DNA of 64,000 nucleotides from Antedon bifida (Eukaryota > Echinodermata > Crinoidea > Comatulida > Antedonidae). The DNA lies in the NCBI GenBank assembly GCA_963402885.1, contig OY727095.1, positions 5,151,001-5,215,000 on the forward strand, in the 5' to 3' direction. How positions within the stretch are numbered: the stretch's first letter is position 1; each line of letters starts with the position of its first letter. A program made the translations under genes and the position numbers. The notes beneath the pieces were generated by a model. It worked only from the letters and a program-made list of their open reading frames with translations. It was not told the DNA's origin and did not search any database. Shown in pieces: positions 1,280 to 50,054 of the stretch.

Positions 1280-14138
<12,859 letters not shown>

Positions 14139-16402: not shown

Positions 16403-18297
16403 TCACACGAAGCTAATCATTTTTAACAACCAAACATCTTTACCATTCACTCTCACTGTTACCATTGATGGTATATCATTCCTCATTCTTTCAATGTGCT
16501 GTTTACTTAAGCCAATGCTAGCATTATTGTGAATGATGCACTGCCAGGGTGTTTTCATCATAGCACTCACTTCCTGAGCGATATTGAAGGCTGTATCACC
16601 CGTAGATTGATATTTATTGACATTTTTCTTGACGCACTCTAACATTTTTTCATCTGTTTCTGTGTTATAACTACTGTGAAGTATTGTTGCTTCCTTTTTC
16701 GGTGACACTTTATGCTCTTCCATGATTTGTTCACTCTTGTAAATACTAACTCTGTCCACATCATTTACAGAAAATACTTGAGTTTTGTTACCTTGCCAAC
16801 GAACTTGAATAAAATCACCCAAACAGCAATTCCATTTTTCCCCAAGAACCTCTTTCAAACGATTTACAATATATTTACTTTTTGTTGTTCTTTCTTCAAC
16901 ATGAGATAGTTTTGATACATCTAGTGAGTATGCTTCATGTACAGCATCCTGCATGCATTTCAACACAGTTGGCAGTAGTCCATAATTTAAAGGTTTTATC
17001 GTAATCGATGGTTCTAAAAAAAAAAATGCAAATAATTGAATGAATTTGTTTATTTCTTGAATTTCTCTTAAATATTGTAATTTACGAAGCTCCTGGTGTA
17101 GCATGCATCCATGTTCTATTATTTCAATGTTATATTTTGTTTTCATAGGCTTGAATATTTGGTACACATATAGTCTCGTTCTACCACCAGAACCCCATGG
17201 AGCGGGTGAGGCTTGAACCCTCGCCATTGGATTATGGTTCCACTATCTTAATCACTCCTCAATACACCATATTATGTTTACATTATAGGCTTACCTGCTT
17301 CAGATTTCTTGTGTACTTTTCCAAACTGAGCAATATCATTTTTCAATCGTTTGAGAGAGATGAAATTTGGAGAAAAAATCAATGATTCTTGTTTTGTTTG
17401 TTTGGTCATCTTTGTGGTGTCAGGAAGTTGATATGTCAGGAATTCTTCACGTAATTTAGTGATAGCAACGTGTTCATTAAACACTTCAAATTTGTCTGCT
17501 TTTTCTATTAATTCTTCATGTACCAACATCTTATTCTCCATTTTCAGAATTTTCATCATTATTGCAAAATTGCGTCTTTCTAGTAGTTCAATCTTTCTCT
17601 TCTGTGTGTCCATTATTGTTTTTGTCAAACGATCTTGAGCAGAAGTCAAACTCCTTTTTATTTCTTCCGTATATTTCTTTAATGATTCCAACGCTTTTGA
17701 TGTATCATCGGTAATACTCGATATCATTCCCCTGACTTCTTCATGAGCTTTCTTCCAGTGGTCCAGCTGACATTGAATTTCTTTCATCATCTCTTGCGCT
17801 GCCATGCGTATTGGTTCTGCTTCGGTTTTCACATACAATGTTGCGTGTTTCTCGTGACTTTGTGATAATCTCAAACCATCCCCACAAACGAGTTTAGAAC
17901 AATCGACACAGAAAAAATTGTATGGTACTCCATGCTCACGACAAACTCGATCTTCCTCTTTCTCCGTTTCCTGTTTCTTATTTATCCATTCTATTACACT
18001 AGTAAACTGAAATGCTGACGGAAGTGTGTCTACATTGTCCCCCTTTATACGAGTAATGGCCCTGCAATTAGGGCAAGTAATACGATGAGTATACCCATGA
18101 GCATAGCTGATAGGCCTACCTCCTGCTACAACTTGTTCTTGTATCAATTTTTGAATACATAATTTACAAAATATGTGAGAACACTTCAGCTGTTTGAAAA
18201 CATTTGTTTCACTTTTTTCTCCTCCTCCAGGAATCTCAAAACATATTTGGCAAGTTAGTGCTTGATCTTTTAATTCTTCTAGCACAGAATAAGCCAT
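16403..18297 (-). CDS. TRIM-like gene A: RING, B-box, coiled coil, two LC8-like domains
   Basis: Two exons, 18297-17295 and 17013-16403, joined GT-AG, encode 537 residues. A C3HC4 RING (C16, C19, C39, H41, C44, C47, C75, C78) suggests ubiquitin E3 ligase activity. A B-box 2 follows (CREH...FCVDC...C...H...H, about 117-150), then a charged coiled coil to about 300. Exon 2 has no SPRY, NHL or filamin fold. Residues about 350-428 follow the dynein light chain LC8 pattern: helices, then EKWNCCLGDF for the LC8 WHCIVG strand, and VSIYKS for ILLFKS. Residues about 450-533 repeat it (TPWQCIIHNN, VTVRVNGKDVWLLKM). LC8 proteins are dimers that bind short linear motifs, so this gene may join an E3 front end to a cargo or dimerisation module. 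The LC8 call is by eye. It is tandem with B and C; the start is the MAY Met conserved in all three. kappaB-like sites lie just upstream. Confidence 0.85.
17165..17275 (-). mobile_element. tRNA-like SINE fragment in the TRIM A intron
   Basis: Minus strand reads GGAGTGATTAAGATAGTGG then a B-box-like GGGTTCAAGCCTC and GGTTCTGGTGGTAGAAC. A related piece (TTCTACCACCAGAAC) occurs near 3115. Too short to classify. Confidence 0.45.
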
Positions 18298-18399: not shown

Positions 18400-20550
18400 G
18401 CACAAAACTAAAGCTACATTCACAGTTTCTTCTGAGAACGGAAGCCGTCTTCCGTTATTCTGTGAAATGGAACGTGCGAATATACTGTAGCTTAATCCTT
18501 TTTAGATAGGAAAACACAGTCACATGAATTGTTTTTAAATTTATTCCCAACTTACAAAGCAACGTTATTTACTACGGATGAGGATGAGGCTATCTATAGT
18601 CCTAATAACAGGGGATGATTTGTTTCCCAATTGTGATCTCTGTGCATATCTTTACAAATGTTATTCTATTTCGTTGACATGACAAAGGAATCTACGAAAA
18701 TATTTACATCATTACTCTCCGGAAAATTATTGAAGTTGTGGATTAGCTATAATTTCACATGTTCGTGATCAAGTTTTGCATTAACGTTTTGCTCAAGGCC
18801 GTAGTCAGGATCTGTCAAGGGGAAGGGGGTGTTCGGACACTAAGTATTTGGGTCACAGTTGAGTTAGTATAGGCTGGTGGTCTAGAAAAAAATAATCGTC
18901 GGATGCCATAACGTAAACTACAGTATGATACCATTAGATATTATTATAGTGTAATATATTAATATTTACTAGTATAATCCTATATGATGATGATACACTA
19001 TACTTTACGCAGACTGCCAGTGATGATCTAAACAATATACGCGGTTTTCAGGTGAAAATCGGCAATTCAATTGCAACTCTTAGAAATTTACAGACACGTA
19101 TTGCTCGACGTACGCTCATACAGGGAAGGTATAAGTTATTCACGCTCATACAGGGAAGGTATGAGTTATTCACGAACGATTTTTTTAATTTACGAATAAT
19201 CTTTTGTAGGCCTACTGTGACGCCCGAACCATAAAGCCTGTTGCTGTTTACTTTAAGAGGGAGCGGTTTGTCATATTTAATAGTACACACAACTTAATGA
19301 TCCGATTATTCTAAAGGATCCACCACCTGTACACATTGAATGAGATTATGGACGTGTTCCCCATTTTATGAGTTGATTTATGTATTGATGAAGTCCTGTG
19401 TGGGTCAGTATTTTTATAAATTCGGCAGTATCCCACTTTCCGGGAATGTCCAAATGTACGTTGAAATCACCATTAATCATTTAATTAATCATTATTAGGA
19501 ATGACTAACTTCGAAAAATTGTTCTACTTCAGCCAGAAATGTATTAGTCCTGAGACCATTTGCTCGAGATGGTGGAGGGCGGTAAATTTTTTTTTTATTA
19601 ATTTGTTTTTTAAATTTTTAATTGTTAAATAAGACATCACATTTTAAAGCTTTATTATAGTGATGCCCGATTCAATCAATCAATATTATAACTTTTGCTT
19701 ATAACCATATTCATTTGTAGGCCGTTGCCAATATACAGTAATCTTCCTAAACACTATCTGCTACTTTTGATACTTTATCAATATTATAAATCATACTGTA
19801 AATTATAGAAATAGTGCTCATATTCGGAACATGATCTCATAATCGCGTTATTGATTGTAATGAAACTAATGAAACTTTATATATTTATTCATTATTTTAT
19901 TATTCAACTTCTGTTTGAATATAGTCTATAAAACTATTAATTTTTATTATTATCATTACTGTAAATAATCACTGTATTTTTTATAATTAATATTTTTTTT
20001 TTGTAAAAATCACTGTAAATACACGTTATTATGGTTACCATTATAATACCAAAAAAAAATGATTGATTGAATAAAGTTCACATATATATAAAAAATACCA
20101 ACTAGTTTAACTTTATTCTGTACGCTGATAAAACAATGTTCAAAACTCGCGTAAGAAGGAAGATGAAGATAGGGATACATTATTTTAGTGATTTTTATGA
20201 AGTAACCTGTATACCTGATTCCCCTCAGTTGTTAATGGTCTGAACTCTCCTATAATGACTGATCATCAATAGTCAACCACGTCTAGAGTAACCAGTAGTA
20301 TGTTAACATCGTCAAGCAGGATGTGATCGGCGACGATGACAGTCTTTTAATTCGTTTACAGGTGAACGTTGATATTCAAAATTTGATTCACGAGAGAATA
20401 GCACGAAGATTTTCTTTATTTTTCTTACCAGGAGCAAGATTATTATCTTTTACAATGTTTCTAATGTTTTTAGGCCTAGGTACATGACATATACGTTTTT
20501 TAGTCGCGTGCAACTCTACAGCTCACTATGTCGGTCGGTTGGTTGATACA
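18400..20550. other. Intergenic space between TRIM A and TRIM B
   Basis: No gene seen. It contains the single 57-bp-repeat unit and a 31-bp direct duplication (ACGCTCATACAGGGAAGGTA at about 19111 and 19142). Confidence 0.6.
18634..18674. repeat. Single unit of the 57-bp repeat
   Basis: GTGCATATCTTTACAAATGT and TATTCTATTTCGTTGACATG match the array at 23109-23645 with one insertion. About 340 bp upstream of TRIM A, as the array is about 500 bp upstream of TRIM B. Confidence 0.75.
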
Positions 20551-22617
20551 CTAACTCAAATTTGAGCACGCGACTGCAGCCATGTACATGGCCTTGTTAT
20601 TACCTGCTTTTCGACGAGAATGACGCAAAATTCCAAAACCATTTAAAACGCGGTAAGTATCATCAGAAATAGAATGATTCGCATTCATATCTAAAAGCTG
20701 TTTTTTAGAATAACTCCGTTGTGACATGTTGCTTTGTTTACCATTTTGCCACTGGCTCGGCGCGTTGTTGTATACCTCTTTCAAAGCTGGGTTCAACACT
20801 TTGGAATATTCTTCTTTTTTTAACACTACTTCTTTTTCATATTTTTTCTGCTCTTCCACTCCCACTAATTTATAAATAATGACATTGTCTGTGTCATTTA
20901 CCAAGAAAGTCACAGTTTTGTTAACCTGCGTTGGCCATTGCGATCTTTCAAAATCACCTAAAATGCAATTCCATTCTCCTTCAAGAAAATCTTCCAAATG
21001 CTTTACAATAAATGTCAGTTTGGTTCTTCTGTCTTCAACTTTGTCCATATTTGATAAGTCTAGTTCGTAGGCTTCCTTTACCACATCTTCCATGGTTTTC
21101 AACACTTGTCGAGATAATCCTTTAGAAAATAAAGTTGTTATGAATTTGAATGATTCTGAAAAATAAAAGTCAACAGTTTTCTGTGAATCCACTTTCTATA
21201 TTTCTAGATCATCTACGATCACATAGACCAACAATCTTGTAGAACATCCAAATTCAACTGGTTAATTGATATTATTAATTGATTATTAAATAAATTATAT
21301 TTAATTATTATTCAAGATTAAATACAGTTCTCGAATATGCTGTGCTCAATCATCATACTAATTTAGGAATATTTTTTTCTTTCAATGGAGCTCAACAGGT
21401 CAAGATATAGGTAGAAGAACATATTTTAAATTAAACAAAGAATTAGATACAGATAGAATAAAGGTGACCTAAAATTGATAAGCTAAATAACCACTTAACA
21501 ATAAAAAAAAAACATGGACAACACAAAGTTAACTTTGAGTAAAAGAAATTTACTGTAATTATTTAATACTCTTCTGTATTTACTGATACTGACGTATGTA
21601 TTAGACCTACTTTAAAATATGTATAAATTAAATTATGTATAATCTATGCTTACTTTCAGATTTATTATGCACTTTACCAAAATGAGCAATATCGTTTTTC
21701 AGGCGTCTGAGAGAGATGAAATTTGGTGCAAACCTCAATGAATCATCTTCTGTCTGTTTGGTCATCTGTGTCGTGTCTGGAAGTTGATTTGTCAGAAATT
21801 CTTGACGCAATTTAGTGATTGCAACGTGTTCATTGAATACCTCAAATTCATCTGCTTTTTTCATTGATTCTTGGTGTTCTGATATCTTCTTCTCAATTTC
21901 CTGGATTTTCCTCATGATTGCATATTTTTCTTTTTCCAGTACTTTAATCTTTTTCTTCTGTGTGTTCATTATTGTTTTTCTTAAAAGATCTTGAGCTGAT
22001 ATCAGACTGTTTCTTATCTCTTCCGTATATTTCTTTAATAATTCCAACGCTTTTGATGTATCATCATCAATACTCGATATCATTCCCCTGACTTCTTCAT
22101 GAGCTTTCTTCCAGTGGCCCATTCGAAATTTAATTTCTTCCATCATATCTTGCGCCGCCTTGCGTATTGGTTCTGCTTCGGTTTTAACATACAATGTTGT
22201 GTGCTCCTCGTGACTTTGTGATAATCTCAAACCATCACCACATACAAATGCTGAGCAATCGAGACAGAAGAAATTCAATTGTACTCCATGCTCACGACAA
22301 ACTCGATTTGTCGACTTATCTTGTTGTTTCTTATTTATCCATTCGATCACATTTGTAACCTGAAATGCTGACGGAAGTGCGTCTACATTCCCCCTTATTA
22401 TAGAGGTTTGCTTCCTGCAATTAGGGCAAGTGATAATTCCACGACCATTATAGCCTCCTGCTACTGTCCATTTCTGAATACATAATTTACAAAATATGTG
22501 AGAACAACTTAGCTGTTTGAAAATATTTGTATCACCTTGTGCTCCTCCGGGAACCTCAAAACATAATTGACATGTTAGTGCTTGTTCTTTCAATTCATCT
22601 AGCAAGGGATAAGCCAT
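20551..22617 (-). CDS. TRIM-like gene B: RING, B-box, coiled coil, one LC8-like domain
   Basis: Paralogue of A, in exons 22617-21654 and 21155-20551; 522 residues. The RING (CQLCFE, CSHIFCKLC, CPNC) is complete with a shorter central loop than in A. The B-box (CREH, FCLDC, CGDG) and coiled coil are nearly identical to A's. Exon 2 has one LC8-like segment (about residues 335-420) with GEWNCILGDF and VIIYKL. After it the sequence no longer resembles A: about 100 Gln/Asn/Ser-rich residues end at a TAG at 20551. I chose the Met at 22617 over the in-frame one at 22632 because MAYPLLDELKEQ aligns with the starts of A and C. Probable role: E3 ligase of the same family with a changed C-terminal module. 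It is flanked upstream by kappaB-like sites and a 57-bp tandem array. Confidence 0.85.
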
Positions 22618-23108: not shown

Positions 23109-23645
23109 ATTTTACAAATGTTATTAAATTTCGTTGGAACGTTCTTTTTTGTAAGTACTGTGCATATCTTACACATGTTATTCTATTTCGTTGGCATGTT
23201 CTTCTTTGTAAGTACTGTGTATATTTTACAAATGTTATTCTATTTCGTTGGCATGTTCTTCTTTGTAAGTACTGTGTGCATATTTTACAAATGTTATTCT
23301 ATTTCGTTCGCATGTTCTTCTTTGTAAGTACTGTGCATATCTTACAAATGTTATTCTATTTCGTTGGCATGTTCTTCTTTGTAAGTACTGTGCATATCTT
23401 ACAAATGTTATTCTATTTCGTTGACATGTTCTTCTTTGTAAGTACTGTGCATATCTTACAAATGTTATTCTATTTCGTTCGCATGTTCTTCTTTGTAAGT
23501 ACTGTGCATATTTTACAAATGTTATTCTATTTCGTTCGCATGTTCTTCTTTGTAAGTACTGTGCATATCTTACACATGTTATTCTATTTCGTTCGCATGT
23601 TCTTCTTTGTAAGTACTGTGCATATCTTACGAAGGCTTTTCCTAT
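23109..23645. repeat. 57-bp tandem repeat, about nine copies
   Basis: Units such as ACAAATGTTATTCTATTTCG, then CATGTTCTTCTTTGTAAGTA. Because 57 is a multiple of three, several frames on both strands stay open by chance. One diverged unit lies at about 18634-18674. The right-most unit supplies the last residues and stop of TRIM C. Confidence 0.93.
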
Positions 23646-24934
23646 TATAACCTTTACAGTTGTAACCATCATATGAGTCTACTTCTCCCGAATATTTGTC
23701 TTCTTTGTACATCTTTTTAGTAAAGGATTCTGAAAAAAAGAGTATACATTCAATGAAAAGTTCTCTTTCCATTTTTTTAGGAATTTCTAATTATGTATTC
23801 AAATCTTCTCCACTGTATAACAACATAATACTAATCCAGGTTCATAGTTTTAACTACAGAACATCTTTACTACTGTTAAGACTAAGAGACAATAGCAAGG
23901 AATTAAACTTCCCAATACTCTCCGGGATTGTACTGTTAGATTTATTAAATATTATTGTGTATACTATACTGTACTTGCTTTCAGATTTCTTGTGCACTTC
24001 TCCAAAATGAGCAATATCTTTCTTCAAACGTTTGAGAGAGATGAAATTTGGAGAAAGGTCCAGCGAATCTTGCTTTGTTTGTTTGGCCACCTGCGTTGTG
24101 TCAGGAAGTTCGTCTGCACAAAATTCATGAATTTCAGTGATCGCAACATATTCAATAAATGTTTCAAAACTGTCAGCATTTTTCATTGATACTTTGTGTT
24201 CCGAAATCTTCTTCTCGATTTCCTGAATTTTCGTCATGATTGCATCTTTATCTTTTTCTAGTAGTTGAATCTTTCTCTTCTGTGTGTTCATTATTGTTTC
24301 CTTTAGACGATCTTGAGCTGAAATCAAACTCCTTTTTATTTCTTCCGTATACTTGTCTAATAGTTGAATTGATTTTAAGGTATCATCGTCAATACTCGAT
24401 ATCATTGCTTCGACTTCTTCATGAGCTTTCTTCCAGTGGCCCAGTTGACATCCAATTTCTTCCATCATATCTTGAGCTGCCTTACGTATTGGTTCTGCTT
24501 CGGTTTTCACATACAATGTTGTATGTTCCTCGTGATTTTCTGTTAATCTCAAACCATCACCACAAACGAATTGAAGGCAATTCAGACAGAAGAAATTCAA
24601 TTGTACTCCGTGCTCGCGACAAACTCGATTTGTTTTTACTTGTTTCTTATTTATCCATTCTATCACATTATTAAATTGAAATGCTGACGGAAGTGCGTCT
24701 ACATTCCCCTTCTCTTTTATATGGGAAAGAGCCCTGCAATTAGGGCAAGTAATAAGGGTTGAGTGGAATTTATATTTACCGCTATTAGTTCTCAATACAC
24801 AATTTACAGAATGTGTGAGAACAACGTAACTGTTTGAAAACATTTGATTCACCTCGACCTCCGTCGGGAATCTCAAAACACAATTGACACGTTAGCGTTT
24901 GTTCTTTTAATCCCTCTAAAACAGGATATGCCAT
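23584..24934 (-). pseudogene. TRIM-like gene C, frameshifted RING and no LC8-like domain
   Basis: Third paralogue, 24934-23979 plus a probable exon 23729-23584. It starts MAYPVLEGLKEQTLTCQLC and keeps the first RING cysteines, but meets a TAA at 24787-24785 just after KLCIEN. The last RING pair (ITCPNC), B-box and coiled coil continue in another frame from about 24876 to the exon end. One 1-base indel near 24790 would account for this. The donor after HKKSE is GC (GAAA then GCAAGT) where B has GT. Joining to the acceptor at 23730 gives a 48-residue tail that ends in the first unit of the 57-bp array; no LC8-like segment is found. Either a pseudogene, or a gene with an assembly error that has also lost its C-terminal domain. 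It shares a 220-bp head-to-head promoter with CDC23. Confidence 0.7.
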
Positions 24935-38415: not shown

Positions 38416-41400
38416 TTTTTTTTTTTCTCTTTTGTGGTTAACCACCACCTTTATTCATTCAATATTTCATACATATTTCGTTCACATTTCATTTTCATAC
38501 ATTAAATTTCCGTTTTCTACTTTTTTCGTTATTTTCTGATTTTTACTCTTTTAACCTTTATACATATAGTGTTTTGATTATATGCATACATAAACCATAA
38601 AAATCTACACTTCATTTTGTACATGATATAATACTGTACATTTTAAAATACAAATATGGATACCACTTATAAGTTACAACATGCTAGTGTAATCATTTCT
38701 TTTAAAATATATTTAAACTGAATCCAGGGATTCTGGCATACAGGTTTTTTAAGTTCAGTTTTAATTTTAATTATGTATATTACGTACACAGCTATTGAAT
38801 ACAATTGATTTTTTACTTGACATTTACTTCCTAACAGGAGTTCTTTGAACGAGCTACTGCTGTTATCTAGTTTTTTAAATATGTTGTCAATTTTTTTCCA
38901 CAGTTTTTTATTACGTTTACAATAATAAAACATATGTTTTTCGTCTTCAATGACTCCACAATTGTTACATATGTTATTATTTTTCAGTTTCCAGTTATAC
39001 AGTTTTAGATTTGTAGGTACAATTCTATTTAGTAATTTGTAATTCAATTGGGCAAATTTCTTAATTTTTTCGTTTTTCACTTTTCTTTTCCAGACATCAC
39101 ACCACTTGATATCTTCATTAAATATGTTGTTCCATTTAAGTATGCTTTTCGGCGGAATAAAAACATTATTTACAAAGTTAGAATATACATCTTTTGTTGT
39201 CATCTTAATTATATTGTTGATATTGTATTCCAGATTCACATTCATATATTGATTCATATTTGGCATATTATGTTTAATTATATTTAACCACTCTTTTGGA
39301 ATAGCTCTAGTTAAGGAAACATATTCAGCTATCCAGTTTTTCTTAATACGTAGTTGTTTAATTATTTCTATAGGTTTCATTAGACGATTGAAAATAATTA
39401 TATCTCCAATTTGATTAAAACCTGCATCTATCCAGTTCTTAAAGAATAGTGGTTTGTTTCTATATTTAATATAATTATTACCCCATAAGTTTTGCTTTAT
39501 CACGTCTTCATACTTGTTAATTGTATCTTCATTATTCATATTATTAAATTCAACACAACACTTTAGAACATTATAATAAAAAGATGGTATATTATCTAAG
39601 CCCATGTTATTTTTAAAATTGATATTTGACATACTTAAAATTAGTTGTTCGGTTCCAAATTTGTTAAAATAGTATAGTGATAAGATTTTCCATCTTACGT
39701 GTTTTCTACACAGTAATTTTCTTGCCCATATCATTTTCAGCGAGTTTATGTGTAATGCGAAATCAGGCATACCTATGCCCCCTTTAATCATTTTACCGAT
39801 TAAAGTTTTTCTTTTTATTTTTTCTGTTTTTCCATTCCATAAAAAGTTATATATCAATTTATTTATTTTAAAAATAACATAATCTGGTACATCAATTATA
39901 CATGCATTGTATGTTAGTTTAGACAAAGCTAAACTTTTTAAAATGGTAACTTTGCCAAAAAAGGTTAGGTTTCTTCCTTTCCATCTATTGAGTAGCATTT
40001 CTAAGTTTGCCACCTTACTATCCCAATTCAATTCACTGCATTTGTTCTCATTATATCCCACATAAATACCCAAAATCTTAATTGGTTCATTAACCCAATT
40101 TAGACTGCATGGTTTTTCAATTTTGTTTATATTTTTGCCAATCCATATAGCGTTGGTTTTTTTTTAATTTAAATTCATACCAGACACTTTACCAAACTTA
40201 TTAACAATATTTAAACCAATTTCTATACTTTTTTCATTTCCCACAAAGAGTACAGTGTCATCCGCCAGATGCGCAATGCGAACTTCCTCACCATTATCAT
40301 TGTTAGGTAAAGATATTCCTTTATAGCATTTATCTTTTCTTATATTACACGCCATAATTTCTACTACTAAAATAAAGAGTAACGCCGACAATGGGCAACC
40401 CTGTCTTATTCCGCATTCCATTTCAAAACTTTCTGATATCCAACCATTATTAACAATAACACATTCAGTTTTACTATAAATTGTATTTACCCATTTTAAA
40501 AAGGAGTCTCCAAAATTAAATTTTGTTAGTACCTTAAACATAAAATCTCTATTTACAGAATCAAAGGCTTTCCTAAAATCAAGGGATAAAATAGCTCCTT
40601 CGATTTGTTCTTCTGTTGTATAATATAGAATATCATTAATTAGACGGACGTTTTCTCCAGCGAATCGTCCTTTAATGTACCCCTTTTGGTCATTGTCAAT
40701 TACATTTTCAATTACTTTATGAAGTCTCATACATAGAATTTGAGTTAAAATGTTGTAGTCTGTATTTAATAAAGTGATAGGACGCCAGTTTTCAAGCAAT
40801 TTTTTATCACCTTTTTTGTATAATAGGCTTATAATACCACGTTTCTGTGTAGAACTCATTTCATTGTTAAAATAACATGCATTTAGAGCGTCACAAACAA
40901 TGTGTTTAATGTCATCCCAGAAATGTAAATAAAACTCAACGGTCAAGCCATCACATCCGGGAGTTTTATTTAATTTCATTTTTTTAATTGCATTGGTACA
41001 TTCATTTAGTGTGACAATACCTTCACATATCCCTTTTTCTTCTTCTGTTAAACTCGTTACATTTGATTTATCTAGGTAAGTGTTTATTTGTTTACGGGAT
41101 ATACCCTTATTTGCATATAGATGCCTATAAAATCTAACTTCCTCACAAAGAATTTCCTTTGTCTTTGTTAGCACTCTACCCTTCTCGTTTTGTAAACATT
41201 TGATTTGGTTTTTTTTTCCCTTATTTTTTTCCAGACTAAGAAAATATTTAGTGCTACGTTCGCCCTCTTCAATCCATTTTACTCTAGAACGTATATATGC
41301 ACCTTTTGTTTCATTATCATAAATATTTTCCAGCTTTTTTGTTTTTTTTGCAATTTTTGCTTCTATGCTCTCATTGGCAGTACAATCATTGTTTAATAAA

Positions 41401-42425
41401 GAATCATTTAGTTTTTTTATTTCTTTTTCTAGTTTTACTTTTTTTATTTTTTTTTCTTTATTGATTTTTTTGCCATAGTAGATTGAAACGTCTTTAATTT
41501 TGGCTTTTAATAATTCCCATAATACATCTGGGCTAAGGTTATTTTCATTGGTTTGGGTTTTTTTAATTACATTTGTAATATAGTTTTGGTAATCAGTATT
41601 TTGCAATAGGTTGTTATTAAGTTTCCAATAACCTGGGCCTCTTTTGGACTCATCAAAGCTGATTTTAATTGAAATTGCTTGATGATCTGTCAAGATAGCT
41701 GGTCTTATATCACATGATATTACGTCATCGTGATCAAGAATTTGTTTAGAAGTCAACCAGTAATCTAGCCGTCTGTAAATTTGCTTAGATTTTCTACGCC
41801 AGGTATATTGTAATTTTTCTGGATTTTTATTTCTCCAGGCATCCTTTAAATTAAGTTTTTTAATAAAATTTTTAAGTGTAAAAACAGATGTATCTTTTCT
41901 GTCTTTACTGTTCTTTTGGTCCCATTTTCTGTCCAAAATACAATTGAAGTCACCACCGATAATAATTATATCGTTGTTTAAGTCAACAATATCCAAAATG
42001 GTCTCATTTAACTCTCTGAAATATGAGCTTCTTACTTTATAATTGTTAGGAGCATATACGTTTACAAAAACATGCATTTTACCATTAATTTCAACATTTA
42101 GAATTATATATCTTCCATTTTTATCGATACATTCGTTAGTAATCTTTAAATTGAATTCATTTAAGAATATTATTGATACCCCTGCACTATTTGAAAAACC
42201 AGTGCTATGTATGCAAGTACTGTTCCAAACTAAATTAAATTTTTCAAATAAGTCAGGTGTAAGGTGTGTTTCTTGTATAAGTACAATGTCAGCCTTTTGG
42301 TCTTGACACCAACTATGTATCTGCCTTTGTTTATCTATGTTACGTAAGCCTCTTACGTTTATAGAGACACAATTAATGCTTGCTTTATCCATCTATATGT
42401 TAGCTGATAAATTAATTAAGTTGTG
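38416..42425 (-). mobile_element. LINE retrotransposon, L1/Tx1-like, nearly full ORF2
   Basis: A 4.0-kb non-LTR element on the minus strand. It is bounded by a 13-bp target duplication (TGGTTAGGGTATT at 38403-38415 and 42426-42438) and ends in a short A-tail, read as a T-run at 38414-38426. Only an ORF2-type frame is present. There is no ORF1 and just 33 bp before the ORF2 start, so it is either 5'-truncated at ORF2 or from a lineage without ORF1. The clear target duplication and a single nonsense codon suggest a fairly recent insertion. It lies about 150 bp upstream of the first sulfotransferase coding exon. Confidence 0.93.
38667..42392 (-). pseudogene. LINE ORF2: endonuclease-reverse transcriptase with one in-frame stop
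   Basis: One frame of about 1240 codons is interrupted only by a TAA at 40166-40164; both halves are otherwise open in the same frame. N-terminal apurinic-type endonuclease: SINVRGL, IQETHL, GGDFNCIL, RRLDYWL, LTDHQAISI. Reverse transcriptase: PGCDGLT, NWRPITLLN, DFRKAFDSV, GIRQGCPLSALLF and the catalytic box as HLADDTVLF. After the stop the thumb and C-terminal region continue, ending with a zinc-knuckle-like CNNCGVIEDEKHMFYYC. The stop falls at the GMNLN motif just after the RT active site, so the copy should not make a full protein. The motif set fits the L1/Tx1 group; the clade needs a phylogeny. Confidence 0.92.
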
Positions 42426-48903: not shown

Positions 48904-50054
48904 ATGGCTGCAGCTTGTAAGTTGGCATTTACAGTTCTAAGTACACCTATTGGCCGTGTATCGGTAACAGCCTGTCAAGTTGGTGTACATGAAATACACC
49001 TGACAGGTACAGCCGAACTCAACAACAACATGTACGTTTTATATATGTATATCAATTTTATTCAATTCAATTAAAAACATACATCTAAATGTAACATCTC
49101 GTGGCCAGAGGCCAAATTGCTAGTTACAAATTACATTAGTACCTATTAAAATTAAATATAAAAAGAAAAATGAATAAAGAGTCTGAGAGGAGGGTATCCC
49201 ATATTATCATTTGGGTTATTTGACAGAATAGCCACCATTTTTTTAAATGAGCATGTTTTAAAATAATAAATCTCACATTTTTCTATAGCTCGTCAGTGAG
49301 TGTTGTAGAGGGCAAAGGAGATTCTAATGACGTAATGTCGGCTACTGTTAATTGGTTAAAAACATACTTCACTGATCTTCCAAAAGCTAGAAAATTGCCA
49401 TTACCAACTCTGCATCTTCCAGACAAAAATCCAGGTAACCATCCTGTCCTTAACCCCGCCCAATAATATGAATGACCAAGCAAAATAATTTTTTTCTCTA
49501 GGTTCAAGCATGGAGGTATAAAATCAAGGACCTCATTAAATTGTAAGAGGTCTAAAGTATGTGTACCAACTCGAACCCAGATCTCTAAAAACTTCCAGTA
49601 TGTGCTAATTTTTATAGTCCCTGGAATATTATTATTAATTTGTTGCATGTAACACATTTTTAGTAACAAGGTACAATTTACTTCACTCATGAGAAGTTAC
49701 TCGTTCCGACCTTTAACAATCAACAAATGATGTGTAAATCTATTGTAAGTGCCATTAACCATATTGTTTTTCTTGTTTTATATAGATTCTTTCCATTATA
49801 AAGTTTGGATGAAACTTCTAAATGATGTACCTTGTGGTGAAACAGTTTCTTATGGAGAACTAGCTGAGATGTCTGGAAACATGAAGGCTTGCAGGGCAGT
49901 GGGCGGAGCTATGAGAAGTAACCCCACCCCTTTGATAGTGCCTTGTCATCGTGTGACAAAGAGCGATGGTAAATTAGGTAGTTACATGTCTGGTAAAGGA
50001 GATGTTATTAAACGATGGCTACTGGAGCATGAAGGAGCACACCTTGTCTCATGA
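48904..50054 (+). CDS. MGMT: Methylated-DNA-protein-cysteine methyltransferase
   Basis: Suicide repair protein that moves the alkyl group from O6-alkylguanine to its own cysteine in the nucleus. Coding exons 48904-49031, 49289-49434, 49786-50054; 180 residues plus stop. The active site is IVPCHRV in exon 3, preceded by the DNA-binding helix-turn-helix with the arginine finger (KACRAVGGAMRSNP). GETVSYGELAEMSGN and WLLEHEGAHL are family-typical. The N-terminal domain (STPIGRVSVTACQVGVHEIHLTG) aligns with human MGMT. A splice acceptor at 48889-48890 just before the Met suggests a 5' UTR exon further upstream. A poly(A) signal AATAAA lies at 50211-50216, about 155 bases past the stop. It is convergent with MRPS26. 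Confidence 0.96.

Follow-up and report, generated by a model that had tools for sequence, protein, structure and literature searches.

A crinoid family of TRIM-type E3 ligases with predicted tandem LC8 folds at the C-terminus

The crinoid Antedon bifida almost certainly encodes, judging from its genomic sequence, a family of TRIM-type E3 ligases whose C-termini carry tandem LC8 (DYNLL) folds. Most likely, this tail would serve as a compact head of the ligase, repurposed for recognition or assembly; the whole explanation, that is, the architecture together with the recognition-head mechanism set out below, is given a probability of about 0.6. The family was encountered in a window of 64,000 nucleotides (C8:5151001-5215000, on contig OY727095.1) of a 315.6 Mb genome in 27 contigs, and comprises 12 copies at four loci, on C1, C8, C12 and C16. 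LC8 is found in 11 copies and occurs as two units in ten of them, for 21 units in total; the twelfth, copy C of the window, has no LC8 and is left out of all LC8 counts. The units sit within proteins of 488-593 aa, unlike the free-standing LC8 of ~89 residues. A first-pass annotation of the window had proposed that the gene referred to here as TRIM A joins a TRIM front end to two LC8-like domains, and this architecture is borne out by the paralogues, above all by the C1 gene, which encodes it in a single frame.

TRIM A lies on the minus strand as a clean two-exon gene model over exactly the span first assigned to it (16403-18297), from an ATG at 18297 to the end of a stop codon at 16403, with a predicted product of 537 aa (Table 1). 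Its RING reaches 24.1 bits as zf-C3HC4 in Pfam (cut-off 21) and its B-box 29 bits as zf-B_box (cut-off 24.1). Exon 2 amounts almost exactly to two LC8 units.

Table 1. Features of TRIM A, TRIM B and copy C, in window coordinates.
Feature	Position	Strand	Remarks
TRIM A exon 1 (RING, B-box, presumed coiled coil)	17295..18297	-	Residues 1-334 plus one base; Pfam
TRIM A RING	18058..18252	-	Residues 16-80
TRIM A B-box	17839..17955	-	Residues 115-153
TRIM A presumed coiled coil	17398..17820	-	About residues 160-300; from position and look only
TRIM A intron (predicted)	17014..17294	-	281 nt, phase 1; donor CAG/GTAAGC (strong), acceptor T-rich TTTTTTTTTAG/AA
TRIM A exon 2 (LC8-LC8)	16403..17013	-	Ends with stop codon; Dynein_light 1.7e-8, 35.2 bits, two stretches
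TRIM A LC8 unit 1	16733..17011	-	Residues 336-428
TRIM A LC8 unit 2	16406..16699	-	Residues 440-537
TRIM B exon 1 (RING, B-box, presumed coiled coil)	21654..22617	-	73% identical to TRIM A
TRIM B exon 2	20551..21155	-	Single LC8 unit (~20866-21153) and a different tail (20551-20865)
TRIM copy C	23979..24934	-	Broken RBCC; stop and frame change in RING
57-bp tandem repeat	23112..23630	.	9.1 copies, at the expected LC8 exon site of copy C

The LC8-like character of this tail withstands closer comparison. The whole of exon 2 matches Dynein_light (PF01221) at E 1.7e-8 and 35.2 bits, above the cut-off of 29.1, and the Pfam scan gives no other family for it. Segment 2 alone scores E 4.6e-6 and 27.4 bits, just below that cut-off; LC8 occupies rows 1-17 of 23 in its PDB search, at a best E of only 0.017, and its pairwise comparison with DYNLL1 yields z 8.1, a score reached by 0 of 2000 shuffles. 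Taken by itself, segment 1 is weak (Dynein_light E 0.12 in Pfam; pairwise z 1.6, reached by 146 of 2000 shuffles), and its similarity to segment 2 is not significant (reached by 584 of 2000). A profile of the first units of TRIM A and TRIM B (A1+B1), aligned on an older helix-1 register, gave 14 PDB rows headed by three LC8 chains (E 0.0083, 0.056 and 0.059), while two column-shuffled versions of it returned no PDB row; a first-unit profile with 11 paralogous units matched LC8 at E = 5.7e-10. Against a small LC8 profile, hhalign gave E 2.9e-4 (probability 40) for A1+B1 and 2.9e-6 (probability 88) for A1+B1+A2, as compared with 0.077 (probability 0.7) for a shuffled control. Pairwise controls, taken from the coiled coil and the TRIM B tail, scored no higher than the shuffled mean. 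A chance LC8 match was rejected, given that shuffled profiles, pairwise shuffles and control segments were all low. The older register, with TVLKCM as strand 1 of the first unit, was dropped because the C16 paralogues place strand 1 at the exon start. Single-sequence genome searches with exon 2 matched their own locus only.

TRIM B bears one LC8 unit, not two, and scores below the Pfam cut-off (E 0.0098; 16.7 bits against 29.1). Its different tail contains YSKKQLL, which fits the eIF4E-binding pattern Y-x4-L-hydrophobic and also resembles some LINE protein starts; a GCAG/GTAATA donor at the tail suggests an additional exon, and a PDB search with the tail gave one row, at E 9.3. In copy C, the start of exon 2 runs into the 57-bp repeat, and LC8 was not found there. 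This repeat lies upstream of TRIM B, and a single near-identical 42-bp piece lies upstream of TRIM A (~18640-18681). Elsewhere in the window, two adjoining long frames of 742 and 498 aa with one stop codon between them (38667-42392, minus strand) appear LINE-like by eye (endonuclease, reverse transcriptase), and a frame at 49749-50054 on the plus strand resembles by eye the active-site exon of a methylguanine methyltransferase, with its PCHR motif.

When the genome was searched with PF01221, 12 matches reached E<=0.001, of which eight lie on C1, C12 and C16. The others are the canonical LC8 genes of C7 (two) and C11 (one), plus an LC8-like exon on C9. The C9 gene is divergent and intron-split (L014:3880-4068 and 4176-4382, minus strand), its second exon scoring 69 bits. 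The C1 copy, around C1:25299339-25301117, is one frame of 613 codons, or 593 aa from the first Met, that runs uninterrupted from a RING through two B-boxes and a TRIM-like middle into LC8-LC8. Its Dynein_light match reaches 85.2 bits in two stretches, each separately above the cut-off in the genome search, and its B-box 31.9 bits in Pfam. The RING falls slightly below the Pfam cut-offs (24.6 vs 25.2; 20.6 vs 21) and matches the RING structures of TRIM2 (6.1e-10) and TRIM56 (5.1e-9). Against the PDB, the C1 front end matches TRIM3 (4.8e-17), PML (2.5e-12) and TIF1-beta (9.5e-11), and the tail matches LC8 (3.6e-10); the middle region aligns to structures of TRIM3 (154-318) and TIF1-beta (15-259), with the coiled coil presumed. 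Just upstream of this gene, a short-repeat tandem array (L009:5821-6432) is open in several frames.

The C12 locus consists of four two-exon genes in tandem (C12a-d). The C16 locus holds four copies, of which C16a has a stop in exon 1 and C16d a broken exon 1 lacking the B-box. Dynein_light exceeds its cut-off, over the whole protein or exon 2, in ten of the 11 LC8-bearing copies (A, C1, C12a-d and C16a-d), with B below. A RING above a Pfam cut-off is found in A, B, C12a-d, C16b and C16c, and zf-B_box surpasses 24.1 bits in these same copies and in C1. Dynein_light is the only family above Pfam cut-off in the tails, where known TRIM tail domains (SPRY, NHL, MATH etc.) were not encountered. RING or RING/B-box genes that lack LC8 are interspersed with the C12 genes and also flank them (L010:7859-8461, L011:3622-4594, L012:3122-3991, L019:4848-6050 and 7992-8681; minus strand); several RING genes there end, by eye, in a hydrophobic, membrane-like stretch. 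Searches of viral contigs, and of genome contigs other than those of animals, found no relatives of the family.

Since C1 encodes everything in one frame, the joining of the exons is not in doubt for the architecture, and two unrelated genes were rejected on this ground. An independent link comes from a genome search with TRIM A exon 1 alone (120 of 161 candidates scored), whose 14 rows comprised, in order, four from the window, three from C16, four from C12 and lastly three TRIMs without LC8: L016, of NHL type in Pfam, L017, a long-coil RBCC, and L021, NHL-like by eye. All seven C16 and C12 genes retrieved in this manner have an LC8 exon downstream. Such retrieval is far from chance, since scoring 150 of 478 candidates already gives at least 150 B-box matches in the genome, many of them arrayed on C7, C9, C10, C12 and C16 in what looks like a large TRIM expansion. 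This search, its query blind to LC8, is the sole independent link, and C1 was not retrieved by it; profile matches built on C1, C12 and C16 are partly circular because these loci were found with the LC8 model. The eight two-exon models have the phase-1 junction, the order and the orientation in common. In the spliced models, exon 2 starts 4-7 residues before the equivalent of LC8 Ala6. Its end lies 1-13 residues past Lys87 in nine of ten genes and 25 past it in C16d. Splice donors are weak in C12a, C16b and C16c; C16c was spliced by hand, and for C12c the second-scoring splice pair was used because the resulting junction matches that of C12b.

Considered singly, the units retain the LC8 core. 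Dynein_light matches all 11 first units (best 1.8e-10) and all ten second units (best 5.2e-14) at E<=1, no other Pfam family matches more than two of the 21, and dynein light chains make up the first 40 of 48 and the first 40 of 53 PDB rows found with the unit profiles. W54 is invariant across the 21 units, and G59 is present in 18. The hedged first-pass suggestion of a cargo-recognising or hub-dimerised E3 finds partial support: the core persists, but hardly any of the residues that grip linear motifs do. The five aromatics that line the LC8 peptide groove according to the available text of PMC3078936, from which our list was taken (F62, Y65, F73, Y75 and Y77), are kept in only 9 of 105 places, compared with 14 of 15 in the three canonical LC8, the beta3 register being uncertain at insertions. 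With the groove residues nearly all lost, one should not presume that the units grip motifs in the ordinary manner of LC8, and classical LC8 peptide binding by the predicted units is not supported. On a wider list of 12 groove positions, 0-2 are kept. Beta3, the most conserved part of LC8 in the available text of PMC6607443, is 0.85 identical among the three canonical LC8, middling in C12 (0.56, 0.61) and the least conserved segment among the C16 paralogues (0.48, 0.35). The linker between units measures 14-18 residues in all ten genes, and its sequences are unrelated.

A linker of nearly constant length and unrelated sequence suggests that the two units of one chain would pack against each other as an LC8-like pseudo-dimer. 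The antiparallel TRIM coiled coil would position this head, which would in turn bind a substrate or partner through a surface divergent from the TQT groove of LC8. Whatever the head holds would be ubiquitinated by the RING, with its presumed ligase activity. That the two units form such a pseudo-dimer recognition head is, in our estimate, an even chance. The main rival to a repurposed recognition or assembly head is pure dimerisation, in which the LC8 pair would only dimerise or cluster the ligase, without recognizing substrates, and targets would be chosen elsewhere. This is unlikely, if well short of negligible. LC8 is widely regarded as a dimerisation hub, in the available texts of PMC6607443 and PMC3078936, and the LC8 part of the trematode EF-hand/LC8 fusion FhCaBP4 is described as dimerising in that of PMC12347358. 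The loss of the groove residues also accords with dimerisation. Beta3, however, is also part of the LC8 dimer interface, and its standing as the least conserved segment in C16 is odd for a pure interface. Moreover, TRIM coiled coils dimerise already. The repurposed head is the reading that we prefer.

Codon comparisons bear on whether the predicted tails are maintained. As point estimates, exon 2 dN/dS is 0.22-0.46 in eight pairs, some of them involving the exon-1-damaged C16a and C16d, whereas A and B give 0.55 for the LC8 unit (LC8-1) vs 0.40 for exon 1; columns below 30% local identity were removed from the exon-2 pairs, and the first exons of C16a and C16d from the exon-1 estimates. Such ratios indicate purifying selection on the predicted exon 2, and on that basis we rejected the view that the LC8 exon is nothing more than a conserved pseudogene of LC8. 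The rate of dN is higher in exon 2 than in exon 1 for C16b/c (0.279 vs 0.084) and A/B (0.393 vs 0.156), and exon 2 is no faster than exon 1 in C12. In C16b/c, exon 2 exceeds exon 1 in dS as well (0.708 vs 0.293), so that its faster change need not mean selection. Turnover of the recognition module is known for SPRY TRIMs. The present genes resemble such a case in their tandem arrays, their broken copies and, for two of three arrays, the faster change of the C-terminal half compared with the RBCC half. Alternatively, the window copies could be relics of a family decaying at this locus, with A and B of little function: copy C is broken, B lost or never had the second LC8 unit and has a foreign tail, and the first exons of C16a and C16d are damaged. 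Yet the frames of A and B are open, at the dN/dS values above, and other loci are intact, which makes decay improbable.

Slightly less probable still is an integrated decoy, in which the LC8 tail would mimic the LC8 bound by pathogens, whose LC8-binding proteins would then be trapped and ubiquitinated. The known fusion of TRIM5 with cyclophilin A offers a precedent, and one such entry, 5va4, is among the PDB matches of C1; the arrays and broken copies, too, suggest turnover. TRIMCyp shares with the crinoid genes a TRIM front and a captured host protein as recognition tail. However, its cyclophilin retains the binding site, and a decoy should likewise retain its bait surface, whereas the LC8 groove here is lost on both the five-position and the wider list, which disfavours the idea. 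The least credible alternative, that neighbouring RBCC and LC8-like genes were wrongly joined, can draw on two-exon models predicted from sequence and some weak donors, but is very hard to reconcile with the single frame of C1, with an order, orientation and phase-1 junction repeated eight times, and with an exon 1 that alone foretells which genes own an LC8 exon.

The tandem may have arisen once, may have been captured twice, or the LC8 tail may have passed to a second TRIM, since the unit tree and the C1 front end are compatible with all three. In a tree of 25 units, with the C9 gene left out, a weak branch (56/76) keeps the first units together on one side, the second units require two changes, and the canonical LC8 group together at 97/96. 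The C1 front end groups with other double-B-box TRIMs, and its other genome matches, 73 in a search that scored 74 of 346 candidates, include no C8, C12 or C16 locus.

The view that no RBCC-LC8 protein has been described agrees with aimed searches of the open-licence PMC literature, which found none among the matches listed. A paper on TRIM diversification, whose available text names a MATH class of tails, does not contain the word dynein (PMC3503706). The genes share with TRIM/RBCC E3 ligases bearing SPRY, NHL, MATH or other tails a RING, a B-box, a long middle, a recognition-type C-terminus and expansion in arrays, and differ from them in the LC8-LC8 tail. With LC8/DYNLL they share the fold-defining pattern across the whole unit, including the invariant W54, and a C-terminal strand at the protein end; they differ in the tandem placement inside a larger protein and in the lost groove aromatics, and this genome holds its canonical LC8 genes besides. 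The nearest fusions are those of trematode FhCaBP and TAL proteins, reported in the available text of PMC12347358 as exclusive to trematodes, which also have an LC8-like C-terminal module; theirs, however, is a single unit with an EF-hand partner, without RING or B-box. For scale, the purple sea urchin has 140 genes with a TRIM annotation, according to the available text of PMC13043383.

More tentatively, and at well under even odds, the LC8 fold may have become in this crinoid the fast-changing, single-chain pseudo-dimer head of an expanding TRIM family, its ligand strand free to vary, on two TRIM front ends (single-B-box, two-exon and double-B-box, single-frame), possibly in innate immunity. 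Elsewhere, few hubs of eukaryotic cells are as conserved as the LC8 fold, and the family would offer a natural case of a hub under extreme constraint released from its groove. TRIM ligases are classed by their tail, which determines what gets destroyed, and LC8-LC8 would add a new class to that scheme. It would make testable how TRIMs gain new recognition heads, and would provide single-chain LC8 pairs ready for the study of LC8-fold binding beyond the TQT rule.
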